From: Paludibacteraceae bacterium
GTDB lineage: Bacteria > Bacteroidota > Bacteroidia > Bacteroidales > Paludibacteraceae
Assembly (NCBI GenBank): GCA_017471285.1
Contig: JAFUUZ010000050.1
Location: forward strand, 1-47,778
Length of the DNA stretch: 47,778 bases
Direction of reading: 5' to 3'
Positions 194-41,320 of this stretch are shown piece by piece (the first letter of the stretch is position 1; every line of letters starts with the position of its first letter). Below the pieces are notes generated by a model. The model was given only the letters and a program-made list of their open reading frames with translations, was not told the origin of the DNA and made no database searches. Both the position numbers and the translations under genes were made by a program.

Positions 194-1312
194 TTATTTT
201 TCGTAAATGTTTACGGTTCCGTAGTTGACGAGGTTCGTTTGTTGTACGGGTTCTTGCTTTTTCTTGGTAAGCAGGGAGATTTTCTCTTTTGTGATAGCCT
301 CCACTCCTCGCATATACATCTCCATATATCTCCAATCCGGCTCTCCGGCAGGCGTTGCAGGGAGGAGGATTTTTTCTTTCTTTAGTTGGGTTTGATTGCA
401 CATTCCTGTAAATGAGTATCTATTTGGAAATGAGGTATCAAATACACTTACCAAAAACATTGCAATATGTTGATTCAACTTAAATAGCGGGATTAAAATG
501 TTTACACGTCCGTGAGAAACAGCATAGAATGGATTAGCTTGGTAATAGGACTTGCCAAACATATCAATTGTTATAACATTCCCCTCAAAAATTTCCGCTT
601 TTCCGTCTCCTTCGCTAATATGCATACATATACCATTATTGAACTTTCCGGATGAAACAAGAGGAATATTCCCCTCGTTCATTCTCTTTGCTTGAATGTC
701 TCCTTTGGACAAAACGATTTCAAACAGAGTGTTTATCTCAAACTCTTTCCAATATGTAGTATCAATCTTTTGTGGCGTGCATTTTGAGGAAACAAAAGCA
801 GAAATAGTGTTTTGTGTACGTTGCTCTAATTTGCGCATATAATTCTCCATATACTCCCAATCGGGATCGCCGTCAGGAGTAGAAGGGAGTTTTATTATGT
901 CCTTAGCATAATTCTCGTTCGTTACTTTATCCGTATAAGCGTATTTTACTTTGTTGACCATTAAAGCAGAACGTAAAAATAATAAACGCAAGGTGTTTGC
1001 TTCAAATTTTGGTTCTAAAATCTTAGCTGAATCCCCAACAACGCATTGTGAGGCTTGGTAGCCGACATAGCCAGATGAGCCACTGCGAGCAACGGTTAGA
1101 CATTCTCCTTTTGAAATAGTGTATTTTTGCTTCAAGCAATAATCTTTGTCTATATACCCTATACATCCAAAATTCTCTTCTCCGCTTTGGATAGCAGGTA
1201 AAGCCCCTTGATGCTCAAAGATCTCATTTTTAGTGATACCTTTTCCTCCTATAATATCAAAGAATTCGCCTACCCGAAATGCCTTCCAATATGTAGTATC
1301 TACTCTTTTCAT
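194..1312 (-). CDS. restriction-modification DNA specificity subunit (BcgIB/HsdS-like)
   Basis: A 372-residue protein expected to read the target sequence for the neighbouring nuclease-methyltransferase. It has two target-recognition halves. Each opens with the same DTTYWK motif (residues 5-10 and 184-189) and closes with a related helix: LPSTPDGDPDWEYMENYMRK near 142-161, and LPATPAGEPDWRYMEMYMRG near 320-339. The conserved closing helices are typical of the spacer arms of S subunits that set the distance between half-sites. Its ATG overlaps the stop of the methyltransferase gene (ATGA), so the two are translationally coupled. The length fits a BcgIB-type S protein. The DNA target cannot be read from the sequence. 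Confidence 0.85.
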   Translation of the reverse strand: MKRVDTTYWKAFRVGEFFDIIGGKGITKNEIFEHQGALPAIQSGEENFGCIGYIDKDYCLKQKYTISKGECLTVARSGSSGYVGYQASQCVVGDSAKILEPKFEANTLRLLFLRSALMVNKVKYAYTDKVTNENYAKDIIKLPSTPDGDPDWEYMENYMRKLEQRTQNTISAFVSSKCTPQKIDTTYWKEFEINTLFEIVLSKGDIQAKRMNEGNIPLVSSGKFNNGICMHISEGDGKAEIFEGNVITIDMFGKSYYQANPFYAVSHGRVNILIPLFKLNQHIAMFLVSVFDTSFPNRYSFTGMCNQTQLKKEKILLPATPAGEPDWRYMEMYMRGVEAITKEKISLLTKKKQEPVQQTNLVNYGTVNIYEK

Positions 1313-3072
1313 TTATCCAAAGAGATTAGAGTTTTACTATTTTCTTCGGACACCTCACTACTATACATTATTTGTTTGAGTAGTTCTTCCCCAAACTCCT
1401 TTGCGTCTATACCTTGTCTGAACATTTCATAGTCCATCATGGTCTTTACGAAATCTTCTTCAAAAATCTCGAAAGGCTTTTCGGGCATTTGGTAGGAGAG
1501 GTGCTCGGAAGGCTTTATCCATTTAAAAGTATCATTACCGGATTGTTTGTCGATAATCTTCACCCATTTGTCCTCTATACTCTGCCAGCGGTCGTGGATG
1601 TCTTGGCGACCTTGGTTCTTAACGGTCTCTAATCCGTCGTCCTCGATATAGCAAGTAAGGATCTCTTTATCATTTTGCGGCTTTTGCGCTTGAAAGATAA
1701 ATATAGAGGTAGTTACGCCTGCGTCGAAGACCTTTTCAGGAAGTTTGATGATTTTGAGGAGCGTGTGTTTCTTAAGCAGTTTCTTGCCTTTCTTGTCTTT
1801 CTCTAATTTCTTGTCCGGCATGATAAAGGCGCAAAGGGCATTCGGCGTTACGTTATCCAGCACATTGCGCACGATGTCTATACAGCCGTATTTGGATTCG
1901 AAGGGTGGGTTCATCAGTACTTTGGTAATGCCTTTAGAAGCGATCCATTTGCCTGCCTCATCACTACGGCTGTCTAATTGCTCCAAGTTCGTTTTACCGT
2001 CTTTATGGATGAGCATATTAGCGCACGCAAGGGCAAATACCTCTCGGTCAAACTCAATACCATATAGTTGATTTTGCTTGATTTCTTTGGCTTTGTTGGT
2101 GCTATTCCCTCCGGCATCCTTAACCATGTTGCACATCGCTTTAACAAGGAAAGCGCCACTACCGCACGCCGCGTCAAGCACTATATCATCTTTATCTACG
2201 TGAATAAGGCGATACATGAGAGAGGTAATATGGTCTGGGGTGAATACTTGCCCTTGGTCAGATTTTCCTTTGTAGCGGTTAAACTCATTAAAGAAAATCG
2301 CCATTACATCCTCGCCCTGCCAGAAGTCGGAATTGATATTATTCGAAATATCTGTTACGCACTCAATAAAGTCATCTATCGCCTCTTGATTGTTTTGGAT
2401 ATTCATCTTAATAGACGCATATACCTCAAGCAGTAAATCTAACTTTTGATTTTGGCGCTTTGCATCTTCAAGCGATTTGGACAAAGTAGAATGAATAGAG
2501 GTATGGAATGTAGTATAGTCCATGTCTTTTACAAGCGTTGCACCGTACCTTTTAGCCACGAGCGCACACGCGGTAAAAATCATTCGGTGATTAAGGTTCT
2601 TAATACCGAAGTTAAAATGCAACGAATCATTGATGCGCTTGGTGAGGTTATAGATTTTCTGCTTATCAATGGTGTTTTGTGCAAAGAGACCAAGATAGTA
2701 CTCCTTGTTGCGAAGTTCTTTTTCTCCAGGCACTAATTCTTCATTCTTATAGACGAGAATATCAATACCATTATAGAGAATGCCTACCACATTCTTGTAC
2801 TTAGTACGCGCCACGCGGCAGTTTTTAAGCACCTCGTCTATTTGGGCTTGTTTGAGGTCACAGTCCTCTTTTTTTACTTCTAATATGATAGCAGGGAAAT
2901 TGGTCTCATTTGGCAAATACCATCCGTCAGGGCGATAGTTAGCGCCCTCTCCCTTAAAGCCTAATTTAGCAAAAGAGGTTAATTGACCGACGCCCGCCTG
3001 TGCGGTCTCTGTATCTTTTAAGCCAAGTATTCTATTGGCATCGTCTCTTACTTGATCTTCGGTTCTTATCAT
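1309..3072 (-). CDS. fused restriction nuclease and N6-adenine DNA methyltransferase (BcgIA-like)
   Basis: A 587-residue protein. Residues 41-75 look like a PD-(D/E)xK nuclease core: RPDG with D49, then a strand ending in E65-V-K67. A helical region follows (about 130-265), then an N6-adenine methylase domain with GQVFTPDHI (274-282), the AdoMet-binding motif DAACGSGAF (300-308) and the catalytic NPPF (388-391). Nuclease and methylase in one chain with a separate S subunit is the BcgI-like (type IIB/IIG) arrangement, and I see no HsdR-type translocase. The gene starts 4 bp after the small upstream gene and overlaps the S gene by 4 bp, forming one operon. A classical type I HsdM would lack the N-terminal nuclease motif. 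Confidence 0.85.
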   Translation of the reverse strand: MIRTEDQVRDDANRILGLKDTETAQAGVGQLTSFAKLGFKGEGANYRPDGWYLPNETNFPAIILEVKKEDCDLKQAQIDEVLKNCRVARTKYKNVVGILYNGIDILVYKNEELVPGEKELRNKEYYLGLFAQNTIDKQKIYNLTKRINDSLHFNFGIKNLNHRMIFTACALVAKRYGATLVKDMDYTTFHTSIHSTLSKSLEDAKRQNQKLDLLLEVYASIKMNIQNNQEAIDDFIECVTDISNNINSDFWQGEDVMAIFFNEFNRYKGKSDQGQVFTPDHITSLMYRLIHVDKDDIVLDAACGSGAFLVKAMCNMVKDAGGNSTNKAKEIKQNQLYGIEFDREVFALACANMLIHKDGKTNLEQLDSRSDEAGKWIASKGITKVLMNPPFESKYGCIDIVRNVLDNVTPNALCAFIMPDKKLEKDKKGKKLLKKHTLLKIIKLPEKVFDAGVTTSIFIFQAQKPQNDKEILTCYIEDDGLETVKNQGRQDIHDRWQSIEDKWVKIIDKQSGNDTFKWIKPSEHLSYQMPEKPFEIFEEDFVKTMMDYEMFRQGIDAKEFGEELLKQIMYSSEVSEENSKTLISLDK

Positions 3073-3747: not shown

Positions 3748-3796
3748 GAATTAGGGAATTAGGATTAGGGATTAGGGATGAGGGATTGGGGATGAG
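3748..3796. repeat. degenerate heptamer array (GGATTAG family)
   Basis: Seven consecutive units of 7, 8, 6, 7, 7, 7 and 7 nt, variants of GGATTAG (GAATTAG, GGATGAG, GGATTGG). The array ends at the base next to the stop codon of the YitT gene (3797-3799). It is one of several such arrays at gene ends in this window. Confidence 0.75.
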
Positions 3797-4778
3797 TTAT
3801 TTGGCTTTGATCTTGTCGAAGCCGGAGCCGAAGACACCGCTTACATCCGCGATGGAGACAAGGGCTTCGGGGTCAATGGAATGGACAATACTGAAGACCA
3901 GCGAACTCTCGGGTTTACGGACAAGAACAGAGATCACTTTGACCGGTTTCCTGGAATACCATCCCGTGCCGTCCAAGACAGTCACACCGCGGTTGACGGT
4001 AGTATTAATAGCCGTAGCAATCTCTTCATATTTGGACGAATAGATGAGGAAATGGACCGAACGGTTGATCCTCGCCATGAGCCAGTCCACCGCCATCGTA
4101 TAAGAAATAGTCATTGCCACACCGTAGAGGACGCGCTTGATGTTGAGAATTGAGAATTGAGAAATTGGTTTCCTCCTGCAGCATCGATTCCGGGAGGGGG
4201 AGGAAGAAGGCAGAGGCAATAATGAGAATATCGCAAGCCAGCATGATATTGCCGAGCGAGATATTATGATAGTGATTGACGATCATGGCTACGATATCCG
4301 TACCTCCAGAAGATCCGTTCGCCGCCAAGACGCATCCCAGCGAGAGTCCGAAGACAAAACCTCCGATGATAGCACCCAGCCACGGGTCCTCAATAATAGG
4401 TTCCGGCAAGATAGGAATGACCCTGTACCAGAACGTGATAGCCGCCACTCCGACCATCGTCCGGATGGTGAAACGCCAGCCGACAGTAAGTCCCGCAATC
4501 AGAAGCAGTATCGCATTGAAAACGAAGGTAGTAAGCCATACAGGCACCGCTCCTCCATATTCCGGGAAGAGCGAAGGGAAGAGCCCTCCCGTGACATAAT
4601 AAATAGCAGAGCATATACCCGTGAGTCCACCGCCGACAAAAGCGTGCGGCAAGAGCACCCAGTTGACCATAAGCGCCATAGGGGCAATGCCTATGATAAT
4701 AACCAAGTATTCGAAGACGGTTCTTGCGCGCGATACTTGCGGCGTGTTATGGGGATTGACTAACTGACTGTAGCGCAT
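3797..4778 (-). pseudogene. YitT family membrane protein, frameshifted by a heptamer repeat (possibly phase-variable)
   Basis: The N-terminal frame starts at ATG 4778 (MRYSQLVNPHN) and encodes the YitT/DUF161 membrane domain with GGGLTGICSAIYY and GSSGGTDIVAMIVN. At 4143-4163 it runs through three TTCTCAA units and continues out of frame to a stop at 4026. The C-terminal half, including the DUF2179 domain (VDWLMARINRSVHFLIYSSK to FGSGFDKIKAK), is in the next frame down to 3797. The intact paralogue at 4856-5800 shows where the halves belong. Deleting one 7-nt unit joins them as EETNFSILNIKRVLYG, giving 324 residues against 314 in the paralogue. As written the gene is off: it makes either a truncated protein or two pieces. 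YitT proteins are predicted multipass membrane proteins of unknown substrate. Confidence 0.8.
4143..4163. repeat. three perfect TTGAGAA heptamers inside a coding region
   Basis: Three head-to-tail copies of TTGAGAA (TTCTCAA on the coding strand) lie exactly at the YitT frame break. Seven is not a multiple of three, so each copy gained or lost shifts the frame. The unit belongs to the same CAATTCT/CAATTCA family as the intergenic arrays at 4781-4815 and 26756-26783. Confidence 0.85.
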
Positions 4779-4855: not shown

Positions 4856-5800
4856 TTATTTGCCGTTAGCCATAGGGTCGAAGCCTTGCCCGAAGACACC
4901 CCGAACCTGACTCTGGCTGACAAAAGCATTGGGATCGATAGACCGGACAAGCCGGAAGATCGTAGCCGACTCATAAGAACGTGCTATGGTCGTGACAACC
5001 TTCATCGGATGTTTGTTATATCCTCCTTCCGCCTCCAGGAACGTACATCCCCTGTGCGCCTGGGTGATGATAGCTTCTGCTATCTCATCGGGTTTCTGGG
5101 TGAAGATCATGAACTGGACGGACTGCCTCATCCGGTTCATCACCCAGTCCACCGCCGTAGAGGACATGAAGGTATAAGTGAGACCGAAGAGGATCTTCTC
5201 TATCGCGCCTTGTGTACCCGCAGCCTGGATAGTAGGCAGGAAGAACGCCGAGGAGATGATAGTCATATCCGCCATCAGCAAGACACGTCCCATCGGCAGA
5301 TGGTGGTACTTATTGACAATCATCGCAATGATGTCCGTTCCTCCGGTAGAGCCGTTATTGAGGAAGCAGATACCAAGGAAACAGCCTGTGAACAGTCCCC
5401 CAACGACCACTGCCATGAAAGAATCGGTAAGGAGAGGCACCGTAGCGATAGGAATGACTTTAAGCCAGATAGTGAGCCACATGACACCCCAGATCGTTTT
5501 AAGCGCATATCTCCACCCGACAGTAAGCGCCGCAATGACAAGCAACAGCACATTGATCAAGGCGCTGGAGAGCCAGATAGGCACATACGTGTTCGTAGCA
5601 AAATAGATGATCTCGCAGAGACCGGTTACTCCTCCTCCGACGATAGCATGCGGGACCAGAAGCTGGTTGACCGTAAGGGCATAAGGAATCGTGCTAATGG
5701 CAATCATCAGCAGTTCCTTCAATGTGATCCACGGCAACATACGCCTGTACTGCCTCAAGTGCTCGCGGATATTAGGATGTTGAATTCTTCTTCGTGCCAT
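4856..5800 (-). CDS. YitT family protein (DUF161 membrane domain plus DUF2179)
   Basis: An intact 314-residue protein. The N-terminal two thirds has five or more hydrophobic segments with the family signatures GGGVTGLCEIIYF and GSTGGTDIIAMIVNKYHH. The C-terminal soluble domain (about 225-305, QSVQFMIFTQKPDEIAEAI to VRGVFGQGFD) is DUF2179, a small ferredoxin-like fold. It sits in the inner membrane; its substrate is not known for the family. The ATG overlaps the gcvP stop by one base (TGATG), so translation is probably coupled to gcvP. The closely related frameshifted copy lies just downstream, indicating a tandem duplication. Confidence 0.88.
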   Translation of the reverse strand: MARRRIQHPNIREHLRQYRRMLPWITLKELLMIAISTIPYALTVNQLLVPHAIVGGGVTGLCEIIYFATNTYVPIWLSSALINVLLLVIAALTVGWRYALKTIWGVMWLTIWLKVIPIATVPLLTDSFMAVVVGGLFTGCFLGICFLNNGSTGGTDIIAMIVNKYHHLPMGRVLLMADMTIISSAFFLPTIQAAGTQGAIEKILFGLTYTFMSSTAVDWVMNRMRQSVQFMIFTQKPDEIAEAIITQAHRGCTFLEAEGGYNKHPMKVVTTIARSYESATIFRLVRSIDPNAFVSQSQVRGVFGQGFDPMANGK

Positions 5801-13988: not shown

Positions 13989-14585
13989 TTATTGTTTATA
14001 TGCTATGCTATAGATATATTTCTCTTTTTCAATGGTCTCCAGCCGGTATGCTTTGTTCTCCGGCAGAAGCGATTGCAGTTGTTCGAACGATACGATCCCT
14101 ATGCCTTCCGCTTTCACGACCGCTTCTTTCTGGGTCCATAGGCGGATAAAAGCTCTGTCACGCTCCTTCGCTTCATGAATCTGACGCTGCTCCTCCTCAT
14201 TCATCGTTCGCGCGATCAGGTCTGAATCCGCATGCCGGATGGATTCTATGTCTATCCCTATCGGTTTTTCATCCACTGCCACCGCGATTGCAGCCTTGCA
14301 GTGCGAGATCGAAAAATACGGTCCGGACGGAAGATAGGGTTTTCCGTGCTCGTTGTATGTCCATGTCCAATTCCCGGTAGGATTTTTCTGTAGGTTTTCA
14401 GCAGGTTTTATGCAGGCTTTAAGCTGTTCCCGCCACATGATCCAACTCTTCAGGCAGCAAAATCGTCCGAGGGTATGTCTGTATCGCAATGCCTGCTCGC
14501 GCCTCTGGTCGGAAACAAGAGGCAGCATTTTCTCCACCGCACTGTCCGTACACTCCTCCATCCTGTCAAAAATAGCAATCTTCAT
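13989..14585 (-). CDS. 4'-phosphopantetheinyl transferase superfamily protein
   Basis: A 198-residue Sfp/AcpT-like enzyme that moves 4'-phosphopantetheine from CoA to a serine of a carrier protein. The signatures are YFSISHCKA, the magnesium-binding GIDIES and WTQKEAVVKAEG. The start at ATG 14585 (MKIAIFDRMEE) sits 4 nt after the RND pump's stop. An upstream in-frame ATG at 14606 would add only repeat-encoded residues (MKVKGER), so it is less likely. The 21 nt before the start are GTGAAAG-type heptamers. No carrier-protein or polyketide/fatty-acid gene is nearby, so the substrate is open. Confidence 0.85.
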   Translation of the reverse strand: MKIAIFDRMEECTDSAVEKMLPLVSDQRREQALRYRHTLGRFCCLKSWIMWREQLKACIKPAENLQKNPTGNWTWTYNEHGKPYLPSGPYFSISHCKAAIAVAVDEKPIGIDIESIRHADSDLIARTMNEEEQRQIHEAKERDRAFIRLWTQKEAVVKAEGIGIVSFEQLQSLLPENKAYRLETIEKEKYIYSIAYKQ

Positions 14586-14606
14586 CCTTTCACCTTTCAC
14601 CTTCAT
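14586..14606. repeat. CCTTTCA heptamers between RND pump and phosphopantetheinyl transferase
   Basis: CCTTTCA, CCTTTCA, CCTTCAT on the plus strand. On the coding strand these encode the last residues of the pump (DEGER-stop) and supply GAAAGG just before the next ATG. The arrangement is nearly identical to 18727-18747. Confidence 0.75.
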
Positions 14607-17600
14607 CCTTCCTGGCGTGTACTTTCCAATACACTACCGGCAGGATTGTTACCGTCAGAGGCAGCGTAAAGATCGTACCAAAGCATATCACTACTCCCAT
14701 CGGCATCCACAGGCTGGTAGCCGCAATGATCATGGGCAGCACTCCGAGCGCGGTAGTGGCGGAAGTCAGGAACACAGGCCGCATACGCCGTAAGCCTGCC
14801 TGATAAGCCGCCTCGCGATAAGAGAGGTGTTTGTATTTGCGCGCATCCTCCGCGTATTCGTACATCATAATCGCATTGCGCACAATAATACCTATCAGAC
14901 TCACGATACCCAGCACCGCCGTGATGGATATATCCAGCCGGAAAAGCCATAGTCCGGTCATTGAGCCGAAGAGGCACAAGATAGCGCTGGAGAGGGTCAG
15001 CAACGCCAGACCGATCTTGCCGAAATGATAGAGCAACAGAACCAGCATTACTGCCAGAGCTGCCACTACCGACCAAAGGATCTGCGGAATCATAATATCG
15101 TTGATCTCTGTCAGACCGCCGGGCTTGATACTTATCCCTTCCGGCAGGTCGGTGATATGCGTCTCTATCCATTCCTTCACTTTTTTCTCCGCAGACACCT
15201 GGCTCGTTGCGCCTCGCAGGTCCGCTCCTATTGTAATCGTCCGCACGGCATTGCGGCGCTCCAGAGAAGTATGATGCCAGTAGGGTTCGAGAGAAGCCAC
15301 CTGCCGTAGCGGCACCCATACTCCGGGGAGAGCGGTAGGCACTTGTATAGCCCCTAAATCCTGAGCATCCATGCCTTCGGCATCTTTGGTATAAAGCACT
15401 ACCGGCACGCCGTACGATCCTTCGTAGAGCGTTGTTATGGTTGCTCCTTGAGTAGCCTCCCGCAGATAGAGCGACAGCATCGTCTGGGTAACCCCAAGCC
15501 GCGTTGCTTCGTCTGCTTTGAGCACGATACGAGTCGATGCGGCTGTATTATTAAAATCCGTATGCACCCATTGCAACTCCGGCATAGAGATCATGAACTG
15601 CATGATCGAATCGGCATATACCGCCATCTCGTCCCATCGGTCACCGCGTATCCGCACTTCGAGCGGGTTCTTCACCGCCTGGTAGTCCAGTTGCTTGAAA
15701 CGCGCGTAGGCATTCGGAAAATAATTCTCGTATTGTCCGGTGTACTCCTGCAGCACTTGTGCTGTCGCCTTGCCGGACTTCGTATTGACGATCAACTGCG
15801 CGTAGTTCGGCGCAGGGGTCTGCGGCGTATAGGTGGCATGGAACCGCGGTGAGGCTTGACCTATAAACGCGGTCACGCTCTCCACTCTTTCGTCGCGCCG
15901 CAATATGTTCGCTAACGAGTCCGCTACGGCGGCACTCTCTTCCGGTGTCGCGCCGTCATATAAATGGATCTCTACCGCAAAAAACTCCCGCTCCGCTTTG
16001 GGCAGCAGCTGAAGGTTCAGTTGGAATAGCAGGAGACATACACCTATCGCAGTAGCGCCGATAAGCATTGTCCATACAATCACCGGATAGTTGAAACAGG
16101 CCTCCAGGCCTTTCTTATACGCCCCTTGCAGCCAGTTAAAGAACTTGTTTTGCACCCGTTCTACAAAATTCAGTTCCTCGGGTTTGCGCACGCGGATATA
16201 GCGGAAAGAGAGATACGGCGTCACCCATGTAGCATAGAAGATACTGGCTACTAAAGCAAATAGCACCGCCCATGGAAACAGTTGCACGAACTCACCCAGA
16301 GGTCCGGTAATGATACGCGTCATGGGGAAGAACATGCCGCTGATCGCCATCGTGGCAAGCGACATCGGCACAAAAAGCATGGACGTACTCACATTGGCTG
16401 CGTACCACCGCGAATGACCTCTGTCCAGATAGTTGGTGTACCCGTCTATCACGATCACCGAGTCGTCAACTATCATTCCTAACACGAAGATCAGTGCCGC
16501 CAAAGTGACCGTATTCAGTTCTATGCCTGTAATGTACATTAGCCCGATGCAGATAGCGGTACATACGGGCAGTCCCGTCGCCGCCACCAGAGCCGTCCTG
16601 AGCGGGAAGAGCATTAGCATCACTGCTATTACCACTAAGATAGAGATAACAATGTCCCGGAGGAACGAAATAACCGAGTCGTTCACCACTTTGGGTTGGT
16701 CGGTAATCCGGTGGAACTGTATATCCGGTGGCAGGAGAGCAGCAGCCTCCGCTAACTGGCGGTCCACCTCGCGGCCGAAAGCCACGATATTATTGCCGGG
16801 TACCATCTCCAGATTCAGAATCAGGCACGGCGCGCCGTTGAACTCCACGAACTGTTTTGCCTTTGGGTACTTCCGTTCGATAGAAGCTATGTCTTTGAGA
16901 CGTATGGTAGCGCCTGTCACAGGGTCGGACCACACGATCTGCTCCTGCATCTCGTATTCCGACTGATAAGGGATCACGACTTGCAATCCTCCTTGTCTGT
17001 CGCTCTCGCCGCCTACAGTCCGCAGACCCTGCAGCGCCATCTGGGCTTGCAGCGCCGTCGGGTTAATTCCGTATTGGGAGAGCCGCTCGGTGTCTATGGT
17101 GATTGCTATCTCTTCTTTCTGCTGCCCCATGATCCGCAGTTTGCCCATTTCGGGAATAGTGCGTAGTTGGGAGCAAATCTTTTGGGCATACTCTTCCAGT
17201 TCGCGCGGGCTGCGTTCGGGACTTTCTACGGCGATCAACAGCGATGACGTATTACCGAAATCGTCGATCAGTACGGTCTGCAGCACGCCGGCAGGCATAC
17301 GCGTCTTCTGGAGCACGGGCAGACCGGCGCGGATCTTGTTCCAGGCCTTGTCATTGTCCAGCACGTCCATACGAAGCATCACATAGAGATAGGCTATCCC
17401 GTCCTCGCTGTTGCTGAATGTCAGTTCCTTGTCTACCGCTTCGAACGAATTGATATAGTCCTCCAGTGGAATGGTCACTTGCTGCTCCACCTCTTCCGCC
17501 GTTGCACCGGGATAAAGCGCCACAAGGAGTCCCTGCCGCATGGTGAATTGCGGGAACTCGTCCTTGTTCATCTTGGGAAGCGACCATATGCCAAATGCCA

Positions 17601-17673
17601 TCAGCCCCAAGAAGAGAGCCATCACTAATCCGTGATGCCTCATCGCCCCTGATATGTGCTTTTGCGTCTTCAA
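14590..17673 (-). CDS. RND efflux pump, inner-membrane subunit (HAE1/AcrB family)
   Basis: A 1027-residue, 12-TM proton-driven exporter. It has the usual arrangement of TM1, a large periplasmic loop with porter domain (about 40-335), TM2-6 containing GMIVDDSVIVIDGY (the proton-relay Asp pair of TM4), TM7, a second periplasmic loop, and TM8-12. The length is normal. The adaptor gene lies immediately upstream. No outer-membrane channel gene is present in this cluster, so it probably uses a channel encoded elsewhere. The C-terminus ends in repeat-encoded RKDEGER. Confidence 0.95.
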   Translation of the reverse strand: MKTQKHISGAMRHHGLVMALFLGLMAFGIWSLPKMNKDEFPQFTMRQGLLVALYPGATAEEVEQQVTIPLEDYINSFEAVDKELTFSNSEDGIAYLYVMLRMDVLDNDKAWNKIRAGLPVLQKTRMPAGVLQTVLIDDFGNTSSLLIAVESPERSPRELEEYAQKICSQLRTIPEMGKLRIMGQQKEEIAITIDTERLSQYGINPTALQAQMALQGLRTVGGESDRQGGLQVVIPYQSEYEMQEQIVWSDPVTGATIRLKDIASIERKYPKAKQFVEFNGAPCLILNLEMVPGNNIVAFGREVDRQLAEAAALLPPDIQFHRITDQPKVVNDSVISFLRDIVISILVVIAVMLMLFPLRTALVAATGLPVCTAICIGLMYITGIELNTVTLAALIFVLGMIVDDSVIVIDGYTNYLDRGHSRWYAANVSTSMLFVPMSLATMAISGMFFPMTRIITGPLGEFVQLFPWAVLFALVASIFYATWVTPYLSFRYIRVRKPEELNFVERVQNKFFNWLQGAYKKGLEACFNYPVIVWTMLIGATAIGVCLLLFQLNLQLLPKAEREFFAVEIHLYDGATPEESAAVADSLANILRRDERVESVTAFIGQASPRFHATYTPQTPAPNYAQLIVNTKSGKATAQVLQEYTGQYENYFPNAYARFKQLDYQAVKNPLEVRIRGDRWDEMAVYADSIMQFMISMPELQWVHTDFNNTAASTRIVLKADEATRLGVTQTMLSLYLREATQGATITTLYEGSYGVPVVLYTKDAEGMDAQDLGAIQVPTALPGVWVPLRQVASLEPYWHHTSLERRNAVRTITIGADLRGATSQVSAEKKVKEWIETHITDLPEGISIKPGGLTEINDIMIPQILWSVVAALAVMLVLLLYHFGKIGLALLTLSSAILCLFGSMTGLWLFRLDISITAVLGIVSLIGIIVRNAIMMYEYAEDARKYKHLSYREAAYQAGLRRMRPVFLTSATTALGVLPMIIAATSLWMPMGVVICFGTIFTLPLTVTILPVVYWKVHARKDEGER

Positions 17674-17677
17674 ACCC

Positions 17678-17712
17678 TCAAATTACAAATTACAAACCAC
17701 AAATTACAAACT
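17678..17712. repeat. ACAAATT heptamer array between RND adaptor and pump
   Basis: TCAAATT, ACAAATT, ACAAACC, ACAAATT, ACAAACT: five heptamers in register. The array spans the adaptor stop codon (17704-17706) and the gap before the pump's ATG (17673). Confidence 0.75.
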
Positions 17713-18726
17713 ACAGACTACCTTGCACCCCGTGTAAAGTTTCTGGTAGCCCTCTGTGATCAATGTGTCTCCCGGCTGCAGTCCTTCGCTTATCTGCACG
17801 CCGTCGGCTTGATAGCCTCCGCTTACGATAGAACGCCGCACTGCCTCGCCGTTCTCTACCACCCACACGGTAGGACCTTCCGGTTTAAGTAGCACGCATT
17901 TGGCAGGAATCACTATCGCTGCCTTGGGCGTTTGGTTTTCTGCTTTCGACTCTACGCTCACGATGCCTACCATTCCGCTCATCAGAACCCCGGCACCCCC
18001 TTGGATACGGGCGGTGACGTCATAAGTGTGCGTCAGGGCATTGGCGGTCATGTTACGCTCGGTGATGGTGATCGGAAGTACGGTATCCGCTGCGCTGCAT
18101 TCCACTTCGCCTGTTGCGGATAGATTCTTGACCTCTGCCTCAGGCACGGAAAAACGCACGGAGAAACCGGACACATCAAGCAGCGTGCATAGCTTGGTGC
18201 CGGGAATAATAGTCTGGCCGCGTTGCACGTCCAAACCGCTCACTATTCCTTCGCACGGAGCAACGAGCGTACATTCGTTCAACTGCTGTTTGGCGGCAGC
18301 ATAGAGCGATTTAGCCTGCGTCAACTGGCTTTCTATCTCTACCATCTTCTGGTCCGAGACAACCCCTTTGGCATGCACCTTGCTCACGCGGTCATAGCCG
18401 TCCTGGGCATGCTTGAGCGAAGCCTCTGCAGACCGGAAGGCATTGACTGCCTGCGTGTTGTCGATCGCTAATATCTTCTGCCCTGCCTTCACGCGCTCGC
18501 CGTTCTTCACTTCGACGGCGATAACACGTCCTGCGCTCTGCAAACTGAGCGGAGTCTCGCGCGCAGGTTCTATCGAACCTACATAGCGGGAGAAGGACGA
18601 AGCCTCTTGAGGCTCGATCACCGTTGTCTTTACTTTCATCGGCTGGGCTTCTTCATGCGCCTCTTTATGCCGGCTGCAACCAAGCAAAACAAGACCGATT
18701 GCTGCTATTAAATAATACTTTTTCAT
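17704..18726 (-). CDS. RND efflux periplasmic adaptor (membrane fusion protein)
   Basis: A 340-residue lipoprotein from ATG 18726, with signal MKKYYLIAAIGLVLLGC and lipobox cysteine C17. It then has a beta-barrel/lipoyl half-motif (AGRVIAVEVKNGERVKAGQKIL), a coiled-coil hairpin (about 85-140), the second lipoyl half (CEGIVSGLDVQRGQTI) and a C-terminal membrane-proximal domain. It would bridge the downstream pump to an outer-membrane channel. The in-frame ATG at 18741 overlaps the MATE gene and adds only repeat-encoded MKSER, so 18726 is preferred. It is transcribed with the MATE, pump and PPTase genes. Confidence 0.92.
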   Translation of the reverse strand: MKKYYLIAAIGLVLLGCSRHKEAHEEAQPMKVKTTVIEPQEASSFSRYVGSIEPARETPLSLQSAGRVIAVEVKNGERVKAGQKILAIDNTQAVNAFRSAEASLKHAQDGYDRVSKVHAKGVVSDQKMVEIESQLTQAKSLYAAAKQQLNECTLVAPCEGIVSGLDVQRGQTIIPGTKLCTLLDVSGFSVRFSVPEAEVKNLSATGEVECSAADTVLPITITERNMTANALTHTYDVTARIQGGAGVLMSGMVGIVSVESKAENQTPKAAIVIPAKCVLLKPEGPTVWVVENGEAVRRSIVSGGYQADGVQISEGLQPGDTLITEGYQKLYTGCKVVCSL

Positions 18727-18747
18727 CCTTTCACTTTTCACCTTTCA
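18727..18747. repeat. CCTTTCA heptamers between MATE and adaptor genes
   Basis: CCTTTCA, CTTTTCA, CCTTTCA. On the coding strand they encode the MATE C-terminus KVKGEK-stop and place GTGAAAGG directly before the adaptor ATG, the same junction design as 14586-14606. Confidence 0.75.
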
Positions 18748-20092
18748 CCTTCCCCCATTCTATCGTCAGATACATAGCGCGCGCGACGAGGTGCGCGAAA
18801 TAGCCGATGTATAATGCCTGCGGACCTACGAAGCGGTACGTAGCTGCGTAACCGGCCACAAAACCGATAGCTGCCCAGATCATGGAGTTGCGGATCTGTT
18901 TGCCGGCGGTAGCACCTACATACACACCGTCCCACATAAAAGCAAGCGTGCTGATAATAGGCATAGCTATGAGCCATCCGATGTATTTGGCAGAGGCATT
19001 CAGCACCTCTGTATCATTCGTCAGGAGAGCGATAGACCCTTTCCCGAAGAAACCGTATATCGCGGTAAAGACCGCTCCTACTGCCAAAGCCCACAGGAAG
19101 AGCGCACGCACTACGGCATTTAACTTCTCTCCCTCTCTTGGGGAAGAGACCGGGGAGAGGCTCTTCCCCCACTCTTTCCCCACCAGTGCCTCGCCGGCAT
19201 AGGCAAAGCCGTCCACGAAGAAGGAGAAGAACATGAATAGTTTCATCAGGATACTGCTAACCGCCAGTTCCGTGTCGCCATAACGACTTGCCAGGGAGGT
19301 ATATCCTACATACACAACCATGAAACAGAGCGAGCGGATAAAGAGGTTGCCGTTCAGTGCCATCATGCGCCGTATTTCCGGCCATTTCATGGCAGCACGC
19401 CAGCTGTCGAAGTCACAAAATACCGATATGTTGAAATACCGGGTTAGTAAAATCCCGCTTGCCAGAACCAGACCGCTGTATTGTGCAATTAGGGTGCCCC
19501 ATGCTACGCCGATGACTCCCAGCGGGGTATAGACGGCAAGGCAATAACTGGCTATCATATTCACTACGTTTACCAGTATATCCACCGCCATAGGGCTTTT
19601 CGTGTCCTGCATGCCGATGAACCAGCCTTTGCAGGTGAAGAGAGACAGTGTGGCGGGAGCCGCCCATATGCGGACATAGAAATACTCCCGTGCTACGGAA
19701 GCCACTTCTTCGGAACAAGGCACTACAGCCAGAACCGCCGTGACAAAAAGCCACTGTATCGCCCAGATCGCCAGAGCCGCCGTTAGCGCTATGGTCAGAC
19801 TCTGCATCAGTATCTTCCTGCATTCATCGGGTATCTTGGCACTTAGTACTTGGTCCCTTTGTCCCTTCCCGTAAGCCTGCGCCGTCAAACCGCTCGTGCC
19901 TATTCTGAGGAATCCGAAATTCCAATAAAGCAGATCAAAGAGCATTGTGCCGATTGCGATACCGCCGATAGCGGTCGCATCGCTCAGGTGGCCCACAATA
20001 GCGGTATCCACAATACCCACGAGAGGGATTGTTATATTCGCCAGAATACTGGGAACAGCCAGCCGCAATATCTCTTTGTTCACACTCGTCAT
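18731..20092 (-). CDS. MATE family efflux transporter
   Basis: A 453-residue, 12-TM cation/drug antiporter of the DinF-like branch (VPSILANITIPLVGIVDTAIVGHL near the N-terminus). A peculiar hydrophilic insert SLSPVSSPREGEK lies in the cytoplasmic loop after VGKEWGK. It is encoded by a GA/CT-rich palindrome at 19127-19169, and related proteins usually run straight from GKEWG into VVRALFLW-type sequence. The frame is kept, so the protein may still work. It starts 20 bp after the AspT-type transporter. Confidence 0.92.
   Translation of the reverse strand: MTSVNKEILRLAVPSILANITIPLVGIVDTAIVGHLSDATAIGGIAIGTMLFDLLYWNFGFLRIGTSGLTAQAYGKGQRDQVLSAKIPDECRKILMQSLTIALTAALAIWAIQWLFVTAVLAVVPCSEEVASVAREYFYVRIWAAPATLSLFTCKGWFIGMQDTKSPMAVDILVNVVNMIASYCLAVYTPLGVIGVAWGTLIAQYSGLVLASGILLTRYFNISVFCDFDSWRAAMKWPEIRRMMALNGNLFIRSLCFMVVYVGYTSLASRYGDTELAVSSILMKLFMFFSFFVDGFAYAGEALVGKEWGKSLSPVSSPREGEKLNAVVRALFLWALAVGAVFTAIYGFFGKGSIALLTNDTEVLNASAKYIGWLIAMPIISTLAFMWDGVYVGATAGKQIRNSMIWAAIGFVAGYAATYRFVGPQALYIGYFAHLVARAMYLTIEWGKVKGEK
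19127..19169. repeat. REP-like GA/CT palindrome inside the MATE gene
   Basis: GGGGAAGAG (19140-19148) and CTCTTCCCC (19161-19169) form a perfect 9-bp inverted repeat. Overlapping this, CTCTCCC (19127-19133) can pair with GGGAGAG in 19153-19159. It codes for a low-complexity insert in frame and resembles the element at 38097-38126. Confidence 0.65.
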
Positions 20093-26744: not shown

Positions 26745-26755
26745 AAAATAATTCT

Positions 26756-26783
26756 CAATTATCAATTCTCAATTAACAATTAT
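26756..26783. repeat. CAATTAT/CAATTCT heptamer array
   Basis: CAATTAT, CAATTCT, CAATTAA, CAATTAT: four units between the hibernation-factor stop (26783-26785) and the lipoprotein start. It is the same unit family as the array that breaks the YitT gene. Confidence 0.8.
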
Positions 26784-27058
26784 CAACTGTTCTTCCGCTT
26801 CTCCAGCTGTCCTTCCAGCGCGGCAAGGCATGCGTCGATTCCCTCCTCAAACGAGTCAGCAGTCTTCTCCGCAAACAGACCTGCGATACGGATCTTCACC
26901 TCTTTGTTGGCGTTGGTCTGCGGCTTGATTACGTTCATGCGGATCTCAACCTTGTCATCTGCATTCAGGTGACGCTCAAAACGATTCATTTTCTTCTCGA
27001 TAAACTGTTCGAGTTTCTCTGCCATCTCGAAATTTACGGCATTGATTGTTACGTTCAT
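26783..27058 (-). CDS. ribosome hibernation promoting factor, short form (HPF/YfiA family)
   Basis: A 91-residue protein with the S30AE/HPF core (NFEMAEKLEQFIEKKMNRFERHL, VEIRMNVIKPQTNANKEVKIRI). It binds in the mRNA/tRNA channel of the 30S subunit in stationary phase. The C-terminal dimerisation domain of long HPF is absent, so it is the short type. It has its own promoter at 27129-27159 with an ~70-nt leader and heads the leftward gene series. Confidence 0.9.
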   Translation of the reverse strand: MNVTINAVNFEMAEKLEQFIEKKMNRFERHLNADDKVEIRMNVIKPQTNANKEVKIRIAGLFAEKTADSFEEGIDACLAALEGQLEKRKNS

Positions 27059-27159: not shown

Positions 27160-27212
27160 GAATTTAATATTTTTTATTAAATTTCTCGTCCCAACAGCCC
27201 CAATTCCCCTCC

Positions 27213-27372
27213 CTTCGTACATCGTACATCCATCCTTCGTACTTCCTTCGTAATCCTTCGTACATCGTACATCCGTCCTTTGTCCTTTGTACATTGTACT
27301 TTGTCCCTTTGTCACTTTAATTTGTACATTGTACTTTGTCCCTTTGTCACTTTGTCACTTTAATTTGTCCTT
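27213..27372. repeat. 160-bp degenerate heptamer array (CTTCGTA/CATTGTA/CTTTGTC)
   Basis: About twenty units of roughly 7 nt drift from CTTCGTA and CATCGTA to CTTTGTC and CATTGTA. A 35-nt block at 27286-27320 recurs at 27321-27362 with one extra TTTGTCAC octamer, direct evidence of unit gain or loss. It is non-coding and is the longest array in the window. Confidence 0.8.
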
Positions 27373-39700: not shown

Positions 39701-41249
39701 CATAGGCTTCTTTGACCCATTGGTTGAAACTTTTCTTGCCGTTCGGCGCCTCTTTCTTGGGACGGAAAAGAACTGCCGTCAATGCCGGACAGAGGGTCAG
39801 CGCCGAGATACAACTCAGACCCACCGAACTGGCAATCGTGATACCGAACTGGGTGAAGAAAGTACCGCTCGTACCGGGCATGAAGGTCACAGGGATAAAC
39901 ACCGCCATGAAGACCAGCGTACAGCTGATGACAGCTACGGTCACTTCGCTCATCGCGTCTTTCGTTGCCTTGTACGCCGAGGTGTAGCCGTGCTCCATCT
40001 TCGCCATTACCGCCTCGACGACCACAATGGCATCGTCCACCACGGTTCCGATCGCCAGCACCAAGGCAAAGAGCGTAAGGATATTGAGCGAGAAACCCGC
40101 AATCTTCACAACCGCAAACGTACCTAAAAGCGATACGATGATGGAGATCGACGGTATCAGCGTAGCCTTGAAATCCTGTAGGAAGAAATAAACGACCAGA
40201 ATCACAAGCAGGATAGCAATGATCAAAGTCTCCACTACGTTATGGATAGCAGCATAGAGGAAGTCGTCGGAGGTCTGGAGAATAGTGAACTCCATACCTG
40301 CCGGCATGGTCTTTTGCAGGTCCTTGTAGATATCATTGATAGCGGCGTTCACCTGGGTTGCATTGGCTCCCGGAGCCTGGTTGATGATAAATGCCACACC
40401 GGGTTGTCCGTCTATACGGGACGAGAAGCTATACGACAGGGCACCTAACTCCACCTCTGCCACGTCCCGCAGATGCAATACATTGCCGCCCGTCGTGCGC
40501 AGCACGATGTCGTTGAACTCTTCGATCGACTGCAAACGGCCTTTGTACTCCAGGTTATATTGATAGGTATTCCCGCTCTGCTCACCAAGCGAACCCGTGG
40601 CGGCTACCATGTTCTGGTTGCCGATAGCGGCGAAGATATCTTCCGGAGCCAAGCCGTAACGCGCCATCACATCCGGCTTCATCCATATACGCAGCGAATA
40701 GGTGTTACCTAAGTTCTGCACCGCGCCAACACCCGTTACACGCAGCAGACGGGGCTTGACGTTGATATCGATATAGTTAGCAATGAAGTCGTTGTCAAAC
40801 TTACCGTCGCGGCTCACCAAAGCGGAGATCTGCAGGATGTTGTTCTGCCGTTTCTCTACCTTCACACCTACCCTCGTCACCTCTTGCGGCAACAGACCTA
40901 ACGCTGCCGACACGCGGTTCTGCACGTTCACCGCTGCCATGTCCGGATCCGTGCCTTGTTTGAAGAAGACGTTGATATTCACCTCGCCGGTAGCGGTGGC
41001 TTCGGAAGTCATGTAAGCCATGTTCTCCACGCCGTTCACTGCCTCCTCTATCGGCATCACAACGGATTTCATTACAGTGTTCGCATCCGCGCCGGAATAG
41101 GACGTACTGATCATCACCGTCGGAGGCGCGATATCCGGATACTGCTCTATAGGCAGCGTCTTGAGGCATATAAAGCCTACTAAAGCGATCAGCAGCGAGA
41201 TACACACTGCCATCACTTTTCTATCTACGAATATATTTCCCTTTGCCAT
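36729..41249 (-). CDS. RND efflux pump fused to a TolC-family outer-membrane channel
   Basis: One uninterrupted 1506-residue frame. Residues 1 to ~1040 are a complete HAE1-type RND pump (MAKGNIFVDRKVMAVCISLL; TM4 proton-relay GTVVDDAIVVVEAVMA; 12 TM). Residues ~1061-1506 are a complete OMF channel of the NodT/OprM type, including its own lipoprotein signal (VVIVLCTFVFSSC, lipobox C1073). The two halves are normally separate genes. The join PLPDPPLKGGKSS is encoded by a GA/CT palindrome (38097-38126), which seems to have replaced the pump stop and channel start. Internal cleavage by signal peptidase II, or initiation at tandem GTG codons (38064-38069), could release the channel. The adaptor gene is upstream. 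Confidence 0.9.
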   Translation of the reverse strand: MAKGNIFVDRKVMAVCISLLIALVGFICLKTLPIEQYPDIAPPTVMISTSYSGADANTVMKSVVMPIEEAVNGVENMAYMTSEATATGEVNINVFFKQGTDPDMAAVNVQNRVSAALGLLPQEVTRVGVKVEKRQNNILQISALVSRDGKFDNDFIANYIDINVKPRLLRVTGVGAVQNLGNTYSLRIWMKPDVMARYGLAPEDIFAAIGNQNMVAATGSLGEQSGNTYQYNLEYKGRLQSIEEFNDIVLRTTGGNVLHLRDVAEVELGALSYSFSSRIDGQPGVAFIINQAPGANATQVNAAINDIYKDLQKTMPAGMEFTILQTSDDFLYAAIHNVVETLIIAILLVILVVYFFLQDFKATLIPSISIIVSLLGTFAVVKIAGFSLNILTLFALVLAIGTVVDDAIVVVEAVMAKMEHGYTSAYKATKDAMSEVTVAVISCTLVFMAVFIPVTFMPGTSGTFFTQFGITIASSVGLSCISALTLCPALTAVLFRPKKEAPNGKKSFNQWVKEAYEAGYNAVLNKYKTGVAKFLKKPGRAWIWLIAAVVAMVLAMRALPAGLVPQEDQGVFVVDVTAPAGSPLVETDKIMAQVEEHVLRLEEVESYAKISGFGIVSGTGVSYGTLVVRLKPWDDRKGLEHYIDMVMAKLYLSCEDIKDAQIFPTQMPQIPGYGNNNGIDLQMEDLQGGDMSKFNEVTNSFLAELLKHKEVQIAQSLYSESFPKYRVDVNATQCDRAGISPDVVLNTLGSFCGSAYISNFNQYGKVYRVMAGAAPEYRLDPNSLNNIFVRIGDEMAPISQFVTLTPTVGSASQKRFNLYQSIACYVQPNAGYSEGDVQRVIEEVAKDHLPAGYGYEYGGMSRELQANSKSNLTILIYLVCILLIYMILASLYESFFIPLAVLLSVPFGLMGSFAFSWLFGQQNNIYLQTGVIMLIGLLAKTAILITEFAVEKRKQGMPIIEAALGACEDRLRPILMTVVTMIAGMIPLIIEGGAGANGNRALAIGVTGGMAVGTLALVFVVPAFYIIFQKLHERFQGEEQQPLPDPPLKGGKSSAANQIAVVIVLCTFVFSSCGIFKKYEPAQKAEPDSLITAVSNDNWQNYITDPVLQGHIRKALENNVDYRSRQLAVQEADARLRAAKLGFLPTLAISPANVGVMGTYTPGAGMSGATLTYQVPLSLNWGGEGFGTLTNRKRQAQVLREQAEDNRAAAHANLVATMARIYTQLQLLDYQAVIIDSTEVIWQQVLEIQRVLVKNGQAYSPSIGQMESSLINVQIQRKQLLEQINSLELSMCLLMNEEPGTVARSPWKSYEFEVFTLESVPASQLSNRADVRAAERNVAAAFYQTNMAKAAFCPALSLSGLIGWTNNGGVVANPGQLLMNAVLGLAQPIFAGGRLQANLKIAKLEQQEAANRYVETMLRAGNEVNNALFRCRNAQEQDTLYQRLLTIQSESYDGTRELMKKGKASYLEVLTAQENYLKAQLADVTNRYNGLISLIDLYVALGGGTK
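38097..38126. repeat. REP-like palindrome at the pump-channel junction
   Basis: CCCTCCC (38097-38103), TTGA, GGGGAGGG (38108-38115), TCA, GGGAGGGG (38119-38126). CCCTCCC can pair with either G-rich arm. Aligned without gaps to 19134-19161, about 18 of 28 positions agree. Confidence 0.65.
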
Positions 41250-41273
41250 AAATGCTTAAATGATTAAATAACC

Positions 41274-41320
41274 CAATAAATGGTAAATGGTAAATGACCA
41301 AATGGTAAATCACCAAATGA
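41274..41320. repeat. TAAATGG/CAAATGAC repeat array between adaptor and pump
   Basis: Units TAAATGG, TAAATGAC, CAAATGG, TAAATCAC, CAAATGAC alternate at 7-8 nt. The array extends over the adaptor stop codon (41310-41312). The same words recur at 46910-46936. Confidence 0.7.

Follow-up and report, generated by a model that had tools for sequence, protein, structure and literature searches.

The window, by which we mean the whole 47,778-nt stretch of DNA analysed here, is contig C25 of a genome (G000) of 1.55 Mb that is 54.7% complete and divided into 87 contigs. Among named records, those related to it come from uncultured Bacteroidales and Paludibacteraceae, and ruminant gut sites appear in many of the record titles. 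The window carries a YitT-family gene that is written in two frames (Table 1). Taken together, the two gene pieces cover both Pfam profiles (PF02588 and PF10035), which are thus split over the two frames, and since the N-terminal (N) part ends at position 163 of the PF02588 profile and the C-terminal (C) part starts at position 160, the frames part at an array of three heptads and practically no family sequence is missing. The N part (YitT_membrane, 130.6 bits) and the DUF2179 domain (65.5 bits) score above the Pfam gathering cut-offs, and the C part's own YitT_membrane match (22.2 bits) lies slightly below its cut-off of 24.3. The C part is read as 114 residues (positions 3800–4141) in a frame other than that of the N part; no stops were found inside either part and there is no second frame break in the gene. 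The product of the gene as written is without the last membrane helix and the DUF2179 domain. A preliminary description of this DNA had reported three perfect TTCTCAA units exactly where the frames part and an intact paralogue (4856–5800), and the profile matches and stop-free parts agree with it on both points. The paralogue is 44% identical to the intact YitT protein of the sister species (genome G018).

Table 1. Features of the window and their counterparts in the sister genome G018
Feature	Position	Strand	Remarks
ATTAGGG-type heptad array directly 3' of the YitT gene	3750..3793		–
YitT-family gene, 3' part	3797..4142	-	different frame; PF02588 positions 160-204 and PF10035 (DUF2179), E 3.7e-18
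Stop codon ending the YitT gene as written	4026..4028	-	product of 250 residues
Heptad array, 3 perfect units	4143..4163	-	TTGAGAA on the forward strand, TTCTCAA on the coding strand
YitT-family gene, 5' part	4164..4778	-	205 residues, ATG at 4778; PF02588 profile positions 2-163, E 6.5e-38
Heptad array directly before the start codon	4781..4813		AATTGTG-type in the window, CTTTCAC-type in the same spacer of G018
Intact YitT paralogue	4856..5800	-	PF02588 and PF10035
Heptad array	14580..14611		region of 44 nt in the window, 51 nt in G018
Heptad array	17671..17721		region of 63 nt in the window, 49 nt in G018
Heptad array	18720..18751		equal length in G018
AATTCTC/AATTATC heptad array	26750..26786		region of 53 nt in the window, 60 nt in G018

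The array at the frame break belongs to a family dispersed over the whole genome and reaching into many genes. With up to two mismatches allowed, its 21-mer is matched 77 times (overlapping matches counted) in the 1.55 Mb of G000 and the reversed 21-mer, used as a control, not once, so the array is not a product of chance. In the TTCTCAA orientation it is free of stops in all three frames, always encoding permutations of FSILNSQ, whereas the opposite orientation has stops in every frame. Downstream, the broken gene is adjoined by type I restriction-modification specificity and methylase genes (194–3072). In a comparison with the first 60 kb of contig C15 of G018, similarity to the window ends just past the YitT gene, save for one 69-nt piece, and the neighbourhood therefore differs between the two species.

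For a comparison of the same loop in related genes, a scan of the species genomes (80 of 88 loci kept) was combined with a genus search using the YitT N part, which matched 164 of 178 genomes and from which 30 + 36 matches were taken, weaker ones being excluded. Copies were counted if they had at least 70% identity and a match reaching residue 190, with one row per distinct 210-nt surrounding, which reduced 139 rows to 73; loci L072–L080 (~60% identity) were excluded from this count. The loop is repeat-free and in frame in 64 of the 73 distinct copies, the window's included in the total, with a length of 45 nt in 63 and 48 nt in one. The other nine have a loop filled with repeats of three types, and seven of these are in frame. 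AATTCTC heptads lie in a loop of 52 nt in the window, out of frame, and of 72 nt in L001 (the G018 copy) and L011, both in frame; CAAATCCT octads lie in a loop of 69 nt in L006 and L013, in frame; and an element with C6 and G6–7 runs lies in a loop of 78 nt in L002, L005 and L010, in frame, and of 79 nt in L004, where a longer G run puts the gene out of frame. As L004 comes from a metagenome-assembled genome, this second break is only as reliable as the number of Gs in that run. The preliminary description had called for a look at the repeat in related genomes, and relatives hold other lengths and other repeats at this spot rather than three units throughout. Its statement that the loss of one unit or the gain of two would restore the frame is, as unit arithmetic, consistent with the lengths in these relatives. 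Broken copies thus number two of nine with repeats and none of 64 without (Fisher p 0.014, indicative only as the species are related).

In the sister species, the N part is 99% identical to that of the window and the gene is open, with a loop 20 nt longer. By eye, the extra 20 nt consist of two heptads and 6 nt, and there are flanking substitutions too, so that the difference is not one of units alone. A predicted model of the sister protein, whose mean pLDDT is only 69, places the repeat (residues 204–212, pLDDT <50) in what would be a low-confidence loop between helices 175–192/197–201 and 213–244.

Several observations bear on how the loops acquired their repeats. In a tree of the N parts the nine genes with repeats fall into five separate positions; its well-supported branches, however, require only two changes, and five independent origins are therefore unproven. 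L001 and L011 have YitT genes that are ~80% identical in DNA, yet a near-identical repeat loop and near-identical codons just before it. Recombination that moved the loop between them was considered and set aside: the flanks are 72–95% identical per 60 nt and contain no long tract of high identity, so that neither recent recombination nor shared ancestry is demonstrated. The loop repeat is an abundant repeat of its genome in G000, G018 and G012 (77, 146 and 128 overlapping AATTCTC matches, respectively) and in G141 (65 octads). A rule that the loop is always filled by the genome's own abundant repeat is not upheld, as G015 has three octad matches, two of them at the YitT loop, and the G-rich loop element has 3–8 matches per genome, the YitT loop included; in addition, G052, G117, G131 and G111 are rich in AATTCTC, yet their YitT loops are without it. 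In L002, L004, L005 and L010 the G-rich loop has the form of a C6-spacer-G6 element with an ATTGAG6 tail, and similar sequences occur at a few other sites of these genomes.

The part of the window's gene beyond the break has been conserved. Compared with the sister species, it has seven silent and three replacement differences, and the N part has 24 silent and one replacement. One of the three replacements lies on the sister's side, the window residue being that of 71 of 71 others. For an unconstrained C part, ~22 replacements per seven silent differences would be expected (255 versus 81 sites); as only three were seen, selection must have acted on the C part during most of the period since the two species separated, and the break is therefore recent, or comes and goes. 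The replacement ratio is higher in the C part (0.135) than in the N part (0.014), which, the numbers being small, could reflect longer relaxation of the C part.

Heptads dominate the short tandem repeats of these genomes, with a period-7 array roughly every 6 kb. In 460 kb of G018 we counted 69 arrays of period 7 (two of them N runs), as well as 19 of period 14 (a harmonic of 7), 14 of period 8, 11 of period 15, 1–7 for each of the periods 9–13, one of period 6 and none of periods 2–5; a first-order Markov sequence yielded none. At a slightly looser threshold, which also applies to the mapping and the 860-kb census of G018 below, the window's genome has 68 period-7 arrays in 429 kb, of which 32 could be mapped to G018. 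These were divided by a coding test based on stop-to-stop frames, with which a few arrays near gene ends may fall outside the true gene. In the non-coding class (24 mapped, the YitT array included), eight arrays are unchanged in length, eight differ by non-zero multiples of 7 and eight differ otherwise. In the coding class (eight mapped), seven are unchanged and one differs by 6 nt, the frame being kept in all. Changes of length thus affect 16 of 24 arrays of the non-coding class versus one of eight of the coding class. The whole-unit changes between the sister species lend support to the reading of the preliminary description, and the coding arrays, seven of whose eight mapped members have kept their length, speak against a dedicated fast switch. 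Among indels of at least 4 nt, 10 of 19 inside arrays are multiples of 7, compared with one of 20 outside arrays without a long ORF and 10 of 90 with one.

The window itself offers further arrays of both stable and altered length (Table 1). In addition, a compound array of CTTCGTA/CTTTGTA heptads with a 35-nt tandem duplicate (27212–27368) lies in a region that is 43 nt longer than that of G018, and at a heptad array at 41249–41319 the interval between the shared flanks is 361 nt longer in G018. Motifs turn over as well, as in the spacer before the YitT gene. Across the genus the AATTCTC motif is patchy: a 21-mer search allowing one mismatch was positive in 50 of 178 genomes and gave no match in 128, and twelve of the 50 have 47–222 overlapping matches. 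Octads of the L006/L013 type have 65 matches in G141 and 0–13 in nine other genomes. Many heptad arrays of contig C15 of G018 coincide with the end of a gene, whose stop codon falls within or at the array, as though the array acted as a stop for all frames.

A census of 860 kb of G018 gave 145 arrays, of which 33 sit in an open frame flanked on either side by coding-like sequence. The same holds for 265 of 435 random spots, and arrays are therefore depleted in genes, yet far from absent. By our own count the 33 correspond to 28 ORFs, of which 26 were scanned against Pfam (YitT and the M3 peptidase by way of their counterparts in the window's genome, MurC and the Kdo transferase in part) and 25 matched. 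They comprise IleS, ValS, a HisS-like synthetase, MurC (two arrays), Kdo transferase, RibD, a PfkB kinase, a nucleotidyl transferase, a sigma-54 response regulator, GSCFA, an O-methyltransferase, GHL10 and GH88 hydrolases, an M3 peptidase, RsgA and more. When their coordinates were sorted by eye, 16 of the 33 fell within a Pfam match; those of Rho (in a linker), a XerC/D-like recombinase and UvrA lie between matches. One of the 33, in a 175-residue ORF (L258:4367–4891) that overlaps the UvrA ORF on the opposite strand, is probably spurious. From the G018 side, nine of the 33 coding arrays were mapped; the length difference is 0 or 6 nt in eight of them, and that of YitT is the sole one to change frame. 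The 6-nt change is in IleS, where AATTATC/AATTGTC heptads in the window's genome stand against CTTTCAA in G018 and the frame is kept.

Two genes were compared across species of the genus. Among the best 30 of 177 genomes with a MurC match, 15 genes have period-7 tracts, 21 in total and at three positions; tracts of periods 5, 6 and 8–11 were not found in these 30, nor were stops in the matched stretches. The first loop holds AATTTTC/AATTCTC, ATCATCC, CATTGTC, CTTTCAT or AGATTGA-like heptads in different species and the second AAGGATG, TATTCAT, AGGAGTC or CTTTCAA-like ones, and in some of these genes no clear repeat is seen in the loops. The other gene (L104:731–2062; G000:C8:4843–6174) joins YggS (PLP homeostasis) and a HAD phosphatase in a single ORF of 444 residues. 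The halves are separated by a stop codon in some relatives (for example L225, L226 and L240), so both fused and split forms of the pair occur in one genus. Among the best 30 of 175 genomes, 13 YggS-HAD genes have 18 period-7 tracts, as against two tracts of other periods. The matched stretch contains a stop in three of the 30 genes, located between the two domains in those rows that were inspected. The loop before the LSMGMS motif, for which four of the 30 rows misfitted the loop motif and were dropped, holds AATTGTC/AATTCTC in four genes, CTTTCAA-like heptads in two or three and other repeats in some, and it is short and repeat-free in eight of the 26 read. For both genes, reading the best tblastn stretch favours in-frame copies.

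We consider it probable that the window's YitT gene is a recent loss-of-frame allele, brought about by a change of repeat length at a tolerant site, reversible in principle though probably slowly, and that it is one case of a genus-wide entry of heptads into genes. In a loop predicted between two membrane helices, the gene holds a short array of a heptad that is dispersed in the genome. Such arrays may gain and lose whole units by slippage, and in the window an array of the wrong length carries the reading into another frame and to an early stop, with loss of the last helix and the DUF2179 domain. The paralogue next door may make the break tolerable, and the same slippage could, probably slowly, restore the frame. 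On a genus-wide scale heptad arrays would enter protein loops and selection would retain mainly those of in-frame length. The array, the break, the state of the relatives, the unit-wise change of many non-coding arrays and the in-frame arrays of housekeeping genes are observed; we infer that slippage caused the window's break, that the break is recent and that the paralogue accounts for its tolerance. That selection keeps mainly in-frame lengths of loop heptads is well supported. It counts against this reading that half of the 16 non-coding-class arrays with altered length differ by something other than a whole number of units.

The preliminary description had proposed that the gene is phase-variable or was recently inactivated by repeat expansion. 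Its basis stands, in that a repeat whose unit is not divisible by three breaks the frame of a gene that has no further break and a constrained C part, and whole-unit differences between species are frequent among non-coding arrays; moreover, two repeat types at the same loop each have one out-of-frame species. A dedicated phase-variation system, with frequent switching through the heptad array and a population of ON and OFF copies, is nevertheless rather unlikely, since the perfect units number only three and arrays of similar length are kept in frame in MurC, IleS and other genes whose counterparts in other bacteria are essential, which argues, indirectly, for a low rate of slippage per generation. 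The argument is indirect because IleS is the one gene of this kind whose coding array could be mapped, and that array changed by 6 nt in frame. The possibility of a plain pseudogene, inactivated once with the help of the paralogue and with decay to follow, deserves to be taken seriously even if we think it unlikely. The paralogue is intact and adjoins the gene, and in 178 genomes of the genus the N part had only matches weaker than E 1e-58 in 36 and none in 14 (many of these genomes are incomplete). A further lesion is absent, however, and replacement changes in the C part are few, so that decay has hardly begun.

An error of assembly or consensus is very improbable, although the genome is fragmentary and repeats can be collapsed in assembly: the same assembly holds in-frame arrays in other genes, and the 21-nt array is shorter than any ordinary sequencing read. 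An ordinary assembly indel was also rejected as the likeliest cause, as the frames part exactly at a dispersed repeat and the corresponding loop is filled with repeats in some relatives too. We regard as most improbable of all that the shift is put to use, with ribosomal frameshifting or an internal start giving working pieces. Both pieces are open and constrained and a TTG-started ORF spans the C part, but no classical slippery heptamer was seen by eye at the junction, and 71 of the 73 copies read through the loop in a single frame.

Returning to the reading of a recent, slowly reversible break, we lean towards a wider account in which heptads spread in species-specific bursts of motifs and become part of housekeeping proteins, mostly in frame and in loops that different species fill with different repeats (MurC, YggS and YitT, with IleS differing even between sisters). 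One motif is abundant at many unlinked sites of some genomes and absent from many other species of the genus, and local slippage alone is therefore hard to accept; it would seem that repeat sequence must also be copied from site to site. If this account is true, simple repeats of frame-breaking length are a recurrent source of protein loops, with breaks like that in YitT as the by-product. For intragenic repeats one would expect a unit of three or six, and here the unit is seven, in aminoacyl-tRNA synthetases and a cell-wall enzyme. The same loops with different motifs would represent a natural experiment on the origin and spread of repeats, on their conversion into protein and on the frequency with which genes are broken by them; frame breaks at heptad arrays in genomes of this group may be real and recent rather than errors. 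An account of heptads in frame inside conserved domains of housekeeping genes was not found in our searches of the open-licence literature, outside which most subscription papers fall.

Heptad arrays are known elsewhere, and their in-frame spread through conserved housekeeping domains is the more surprising, wider result. Heptads are the commonest repeat class in most genomes and multiples of three are favoured in genes (Mrazek et al. 2007, as quoted in PMC4679880); tri- and hexanucleotide units are reported to be exceptional in their enrichment in coding regions (PMC12699852). TAACTGA arrays of Beggiatoaceae, cyanobacteria and some Bacteroidetes are mostly intergenic, with 11 ORFs containing the stop-free orientation, mostly at protein peripheries (PMC4679880), and GGGNATC arrays of Xanthomonas and Nostoc are 68% intergenic in Nostoc and 11% and 7% intragenic in two xanthomonads (PMC4692102).

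The window's array resembles simple sequence repeat (SSR) contingency loci in having a tandem unit not divisible by three at a frame break, with array length setting the frame and the rest of the gene intact and under selection; unlike them, it is very short, and the same class of repeat also occurs in frame in housekeeping genes. With the heptameric SSRs (Mrazek 2007 per PMC4679880; PMC4679880; PMC4692102) the arrays share a 7-nt tandem unit, a genome-wide and mostly intergenic distribution with a minority of intragenic members and an under-representation in coding sequence. They differ in that this genus has several motif families per genome and different motifs in the same loop across species, and in that its coding arrays lie inside conserved domains of core enzymes, whereas those described in PMC4679880 are mainly at protein peripheries. 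The palindromic elements of Rickettsia (PMC10969869) offer a further parallel, as they too are dispersed repeats in frame in unrelated metabolic genes, a pattern seen for unrelated genes in the G018 census; however, those elements are palindromic and ~150 bp long, and the arrays described here are short direct repeats of heptads, of ~20–90 nt.
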